Shown here: one piece after another, positions 37,001 through 37,323 of the stretch | Layout of the letters: each line of letters starts with the position of its first letter | Numbering within the stretch: the stretch's first letter is position 1 | NCBI RefSeq assembly: GCF_021044885.1 | Contig: NZ_JAJNOD010000001.1 | Location: 868,001-932,000 of the forward strand | From: Microbacterium nymphoidis | Lineage (GTDB): Bacteria > Actinomycetota > Actinomycetes > Actinomycetales > Microbacteriaceae | Direction of reading: 5' to 3' | Length of the DNA: 64,000 bases | Translations under genes and position numbers: made by a program | Notes under the pieces: model-generated | What the model was told of the DNA's origin: nothing | Seen by the model: the letters and a program-made list of their open reading frames with translations, nothing else | Database searches by the model: none

Positions 37001-37323
37001 TCAGCGCGCGGACTCCGCCGCCGACGGATCCACCACATCGATGACGTGTGCACTGTCTCCGTGTCCCGGCTCCAGACGCCAGACCCGCACGGGCTGACCG
37101 ACGACAGGGACCTGCGACTGCAGGATCGCGCCGCTGCTCGCTCGCGGCATGCTCCATCGCGCGTGGAGCTCGGCGGGGGGGGGGGGGGGGGGGGGGGGGG
37201 GGGGGGGGGGGGGGGGGGGGGGGGGGGGGGGGGGGGGGGGGGGGCGGGGGGGGGGGGGGTGGTTGCGGGGGCCCCTCTGGTCTGCGCTAGCGCCGATTCG
37301 TCGCTCGCGTCAACCCGCACCAC
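37001..37323 (-). pseudogene. Reverse-strand gene interrupted by the poly-G tract
   Basis: A coding-like C-terminal part (37001-37174) reads ELHARWSMPRASSGAILQ ... VGQPVRVWRLEPGHG ... DVVDPSAAESAR and ends in TGA at 37001-37003; its third positions are strongly GC-biased. On the other side of the G-run a possible N-terminus begins at GTG 37323 (VVRVDASDESALAQTRG). The two parts are in different frames across the tract, so the gene is not readable as assembled. It may be intact in the real genome, with true sequence lost or replaced in the poly-G. Function not recognised. Confidence 0.5.
37175..37259 (+). repeat. Poly-G tract: 70 G, one C, 14 G
   Basis: Positions 37175-37244 are an unbroken run of 70 G, then C at 37245, then 14 G, with further G-rich low-quality-looking sequence to about 37275. 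Homopolymers of this length are essentially unknown in stable bacterial DNA. The most likely source is no-signal base calling (read as G in two-colour sequencing) built into the assembly, or a filled gap. Confidence 0.95.

Follow-up and report, generated by a model that had tools for sequence, protein, structure and literature searches.

Chimeric contigs, in which distant segments of a genome end up joined, are usually caused by a genomic repeat. Phase-variable poly-G tracts are mostly far shorter than the tract described here and lie in intact gene order. Long poly-G is also known from sequencing itself: the NextSeq 2000 and the MGISEQ-200 are two-channel instruments on which G is unlabelled, according to a published account (PMC11140927), and two further papers refer to poly-G tails in data from NextSeq or NovaSeq instruments and to their removal in routine workflows (PMC9781918, PMC9120454).

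The tract from Microbacterium nymphoidis studied here resembles each of these in part. As with two-colour poly-G tails, contigs read towards their ends were found to finish in pure G, once directly after adapter sequence and ten A. Unlike such tails, the present one lies within a finished contig between unrelated segments, and one of the two tips involved reads C outward. As in a chimeric contig, distant segments are joined, and what each should adjoin is found at the end of a different contig of this assembly, but the shared sequence apparently is an artefact homopolymer and not a genomic repeat. With phase-variable tracts it has in common a long poly-G adjoining coding sequence; however, gene order is broken here and the relative lacks the tract. 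A literature search over titles and abstract openings returned no description of misjoins glued by poly-G, which is weak evidence of absence, and a search for Microbacterium with poly-G and homopolymeric found nothing.

The window, by which we mean the whole stretch of 64,000 bases analysed, corresponds to C1:868001-932000 of the M. nymphoidis assembly (12 contigs, 3.77 Mb). The tract occupies window positions 37175-37259 and consists, exactly as the initial annotation had read it, of 70 G (37175-37244), a single C (37245) and 14 G (37246-37259); a T follows at 37260. Outside the tract, G or C runs in the window reach a length of 6 at most, and across 200 mononucleotide shuffles of the window the maximum was 15, which leaves the 70-G tract far above chance. 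GC skew (-0.021 left of the tract, -0.003 right) decides nothing. Very probably the tract is not a real feature, but an artefact that comes with a misjoin on the megabase scale.

The comparison that led to this conclusion relies on the nearest relative in our genome set, which holds one genome per species. This relative, the MAG Microbacterium sp. Pcu381_bin11 (JAITLK010000003.1; G039 hereafter), belongs to the same genus but to another species, with 83-98% DNA identity over the compared stretches and lower values in some. It has an estimated completeness of 44%, and for the C3 side it is the sole close relative from which the order can be read. Gene order was compared over sampled stretches, and the order given below for M. 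nymphoidis is that of the relative carried over to it. Contigs named without a genome are those of M. nymphoidis, L and R after a contig name denote its left and right end, and the features in window coordinates are as follows.

1..37174, no strand: right end of chromosome segment A (C1:1-905174); by sampled stretches of G039, its true continuation would be the reverse of C3
36133..36600, plus strand: ribH (lumazine synthase; PF00885), final rib gene of the left segment
37004..37171, minus strand: C-terminal part of a gene for an uncharacterised protein, the N-terminal part of which lies at the right end of C3 (G039 comparison)
37175..37259, plus strand (C1:905175-905259): artefact tract G70-C-G14, site of the false join (read from the sequence; join judged false by the G039 comparison)
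37260..64000, no strand: left end of chromosome segment B (C1:905260 onward); by sampled stretches of G039, its true predecessor would be the reverse of C6
37260..37270, plus strand: TGGTTGCGGGG, bases that misfit the expected hairpin arm, read as probably corrupted calls between the tract and the true sequence
37271..37285, plus strand: GCCCCTCTGGTCTGC, which forms the outer portion of the right arm in the sdhB terminator hairpin (sequence comparison); left arm and loop lie at the left end of C6
37355..37807, plus strand: NUDIX gene (PF00293), first gene of the right segment; downstream of sdhB in G039
37804..39051, plus strand: gene of a BrkB-family membrane protein (PF03631)

On the left, C1:892001-905159 (to window position 37159) corresponds to G039 C3:31796-44905 with 83% identity. 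There, ribH (43906-44370) is followed by a minus-strand gene that is whole in G039 and carries no Pfam match, and the left coding piece of M. nymphoidis (minus strand, 37171-37004, stop at 37001-37003) is 84% identical to G039 C3:44753-44917. Just 31 bases further on the match passes to another contig: G039 C3:44937-46408 equals C3:280139-278668 in reverse, and the correspondence continues piecewise until G039 C3:60000 meets C3:263506. C3 has 280,175 bases and terminates in G26 CCCC starting at 280146, and the G039 match enters it 6 bases short of this poly-G end. The assembly of M. nymphoidis holds the halves of the split gene apart, the N-terminal one at the end of C3 and the C-terminal one at window 37171-37004. 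Both pieces read G outward at their stopping points; one plain G tract between them is therefore impossible, while a tract of G and then of C could connect them. Among 30 ribH loci the split gene adjoins ribH only in M. nymphoidis and G039, so that G039 and the split gene itself are the support for the left junction.

These results bear on the initial annotation, which had seen the tract inside a coding region, dividing one reverse-strand ORF into two parts in different frames. Mechanical ORFs are indeed present, but the left piece is the only true coding one, and its other half is found on C3 and not to the right of the tract; the two ORF parts do not belong together. To the right, G039 has intergenic sequence as far as the start of the NUDIX gene (37355 in the window). 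The warning that any poly-Pro or poly-Gly protein predicted across the tract is false holds.

On the right, G039 C1 carries sdhB (assigned by ORF and iron-sulfur Pfam domains), a strong hairpin and then the NUDIX gene (530003), with the stretch up to the latter being intergenic. The equivalent of the G039 sdhAB stretch in M. nymphoidis is C6:22-1921 on the minus strand (96% identity). The G039 match on C6 reaches the third base of this contig (C6:3) and resumes in C1 at 905268 (window 37268). Read outward, C6 stops within the hairpin, and window 37271-37285 completes its right arm. Since the end of C6 begins the hairpin and these 15 bases supply the remainder, the break on the right would thus fall within one arm of the terminator hairpin. 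The intervening positions 37260-37270 fit neither side and are probably corrupted.

The order of the pieces can be followed over a single G039 contig (C1), which was unbroken where sampled and contains the reverse complement of the left part of C1, the reverse complement of C6, and C1 from 905268 onward. The sampled correspondences are G039 C1:230106-242225 with C1:106120-94006, 335001-336872 with C1:1881-2, 336860-340000 with C6:192681-189541, 423674-439679 with C6:105999-90001, 514933-529919 with C6:15000-3, and 529914-537000 with C1:905268-912353. In the G039 arrangement, segment A would be followed beyond its left end by C6 and then by the left end of segment B, and its right end would lead into C3. 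Between the two sides of the tract there would then be 905,174 + 192,726 bases (about 1.1 Mb), and their orientation would be mutually inverted. The flanks are non-adjacent in this one relative, the left being on G039 C3 and the right on G039 C1, and in it each continues into sequence that forms the end of another M. nymphoidis contig (C3:280139 of 280175; C6:3). The left end of C1 and the right end of C6 likewise meet at a terminator hairpin. Breaks at strong terminator-like hairpins were seen at C1L, C6L, C6R, C2R, C4L and C8L. The G039 stretches spanning the junctions (L036, L108, L109, L110, L276) contain no G or C run of at least 8. We also asked whether G039 itself might be chimeric: its order on the sdhB side agrees with 27 other loci of the genus, and on the C3 side it is backed by the meeting of the gene halves, though by no third genome.

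The right flank can also be judged across the genus. A BrkB match was present in 119 of 119 genus genomes, and the best 30 of these 119 loci were examined (L139-L168). Of the 29 among them that come from other genomes, 28 carry sdhB in the 1.5 kb that precede BrkB (L165 partially, at the locus edge), no sdhB was found in this 1.5-kb flank in L160, and M. nymphoidis (L139) alone carries ribH in place of sdhB. The genus, as far as these loci represent it, keeps sdhB upstream of BrkB. In seven genus genomes measured, ribH and BrkB share a contig at a distance of 7-16 kb, with BrkB first in all seven, which is the opposite of the order in the window, while G039 has the two on separate contigs, perhaps through a lineage-specific rearrangement. 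The gene order of the ribH neighbourhood in G039 is unlike that in several genus members.

The initial judgement that the tract is almost certainly non-biological is upheld; comparing the syntenic gene in related genomes, the check proposed there, decided the matter, as the flanks lie apart in G039. Its second suggestion, a badly closed gap, falls short, because we are dealing with a false join of two distant segments. A gap within a single gene is ruled out, as the two sides belong to different loci.

As to where the G comes from, the M. nymphoidis genome holds six G or C runs of at least 12: the two of the tract, an internal C15 (C1:1629518-1629532), and one each at the contig ends C3R, C8R (78 G) and C11L, the last three all reading G outward. 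C6R (L279, L176) runs into the sequence AGATCGGAAGAGCACACGTC..., and C8L (L118) bears the 12 bases ATCGGAAGAGCG; both we take to be Illumina adapter, a sign of untrimmed Illumina reads in this assembly. A third match to the adapter pattern, at C7:70557, is contig-internal and in a different context and was taken as chance.

Similar ends occur elsewhere. Runs of at least 20 are present in 53 of the 198 genomes of the genus set (M. nymphoidis included), with 119 places listed. We fetched 101 stretches over the listed run places except the tract of the window (one of them, L015, for the C15), and these contain 119 runs of at least 20, a figure counted differently from the number of listed places and equal to it by coincidence. 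Of these runs, 57 are no more than 150 bases from a contig end, and the remaining 62 lie away from ends. When the innermost run within 150 bases is taken at each of 46 contig ends, 33 read G outward and 13 read C outward (p 0.0045, two-sided binomial test). At the very tip, runs of at least 20 read G outward in 17 of 17 cases (p 1.5e-5), which come from 12 genomes and are not fully independent; one tip with C outward (G111 C1) is a C17 and falls below the threshold of 20. In the tract of the window, the segment A side reads G outward and the segment B side C outward, and the latter, like the 13 contig ends just mentioned and the C17, counts against the no-signal model, which does not predict C. 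In a sister assembly, the right end of a contig consists of adapter, A10 and G55 (G033 C45; L194), as expected for reads overrunning a short fragment on a two-colour machine. Another contig of that assembly starts at its left end with the reverse of such a tail (G033 C9; L193). The sequence G26, a gap of N10 and C25 in G025 is two G-outward tips face to face. Exactly 78 G were found at three tips, C8R and two in G050. A k of 77 is a common SPAdes setting, and 78 is k+1, so these tips would agree with an assembly graph that has a poly-G hub. In a sample of the phylum, runs of at least 40 occur in 10 of 246 genomes, again including M. nymphoidis.

Two further internal runs are mentioned for their own sake. 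G105 C1:414100-415400 (L030) is a low-complexity region, G/T-rich and A/G-rich, with a G87 within a 3.9-Mb contig, and is unlike the other tracts. G155 C1:951084-951179 (L031) is a run of 96 G within a 1.3-Mb contig and a possible further misjoin; a search with its flanks against the 198 genomes matched 20, G155 itself over the full query and the other 19 in short pieces, mostly the G run, which leaves these flanks without clear relatives.

No-signal G calls of two-colour sequencing, already named in the initial annotation, are in our opinion the best source of the tract, supported by the G-outward ends, the leftover adapter and the adapter-A10-G55 tail of the sister assembly. It is unlikely, yet the most serious of the alternatives, that the join is false while the poly-G arose from another technical cause, such as failure at a hairpin or of the polymerase under a different chemistry, or a gap-filling or polishing step. 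Segment B is broken inside a strong hairpin with its tip reading C outward, and C1L and C6R meet at a hairpin as well, all of which would suit such a cause. However, the adapter at contig ends, the G-outward tips in this assembly and across the genus, and the tail in G033 fit two-colour read-through.

A true rearrangement of the strain with its breakpoint at the tract is very improbable. G039 is, admittedly, a different species, and the order of the ribH region varies between it and several genus members. Against this, the sequences expected next to the two sides both stop, as contig ends of this very assembly, only a few bases from the breakpoints, one of them in poly-G, and the halves of the split gene as well as the arms of the hairpin fit together across contig ends.

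That the tract is a genuine long G run in its true place, for example a slippage-prone phase-variable repeat, we regard as next to impossible. Runs of 20-23 G or C do exist in single-contig genus genomes, with five internal ones on both strands of G007 C1 (L025-L029), and these, like the internal C15 of M. nymphoidis, may be real homopolymer tracts and not artefacts. However, 70 far exceeds such lengths, both pieces of the split gene read G outward where they stop, and the flank order is contradicted by G039 and the genus.

We are highly confident that the tract is an assembly scar, most likely of two-colour no-signal G, at which contig tips were fused into a false join of distant segments. 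Untrimmed Illumina reads, most likely two-colour, would have lost signal at hard sites and been called G, and the assembler would have extended contigs into tips made of homopolymer. In segment B, the cut would lie within the sdhB terminator hairpin. The right tip of segment A (G outward) and the left tip of segment B (C outward) share their letters on one strand and could have merged as G70-C-G14. The comparison itself shows that in G039 each flank continues into the end of another M. nymphoidis contig and that the genus keeps sdhB upstream of BrkB; two-colour chemistry, the merging of tips and a strain that keeps the order of G039 are what we infer.

More generally, we tentatively propose that false synteny in public reference genomes arises repeatedly, and recognisably, from poly-G tips. 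G- and C-outward tips would be complementary and become fused, an internal pure-G run of at least 30 in a short-read draft would mark a probable misjoin, and G-then-C tracts would mark two G-outward tips meeting. If this is true, some of the 62 genus runs of at least 20 away from contig ends are further misjoins, although this was demonstrated for the tract of the window only. A poly-G run in a reference assembly can conceal a large misjoin, and screening for it is easy.

For M. nymphoidis, the tract is without biological meaning. Since the join is false, gene order is wrong for the whole contig and not merely over 85 bases: the tract invalidates gene order across 37175-37259 and hence that of the 2.0-Mb contig. 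Claims on neighbourhoods, operons or inversions that cross it would be false, among them ribH lying beside the NUDIX gene and an orientation change of about 0.9 Mb relative to relatives.
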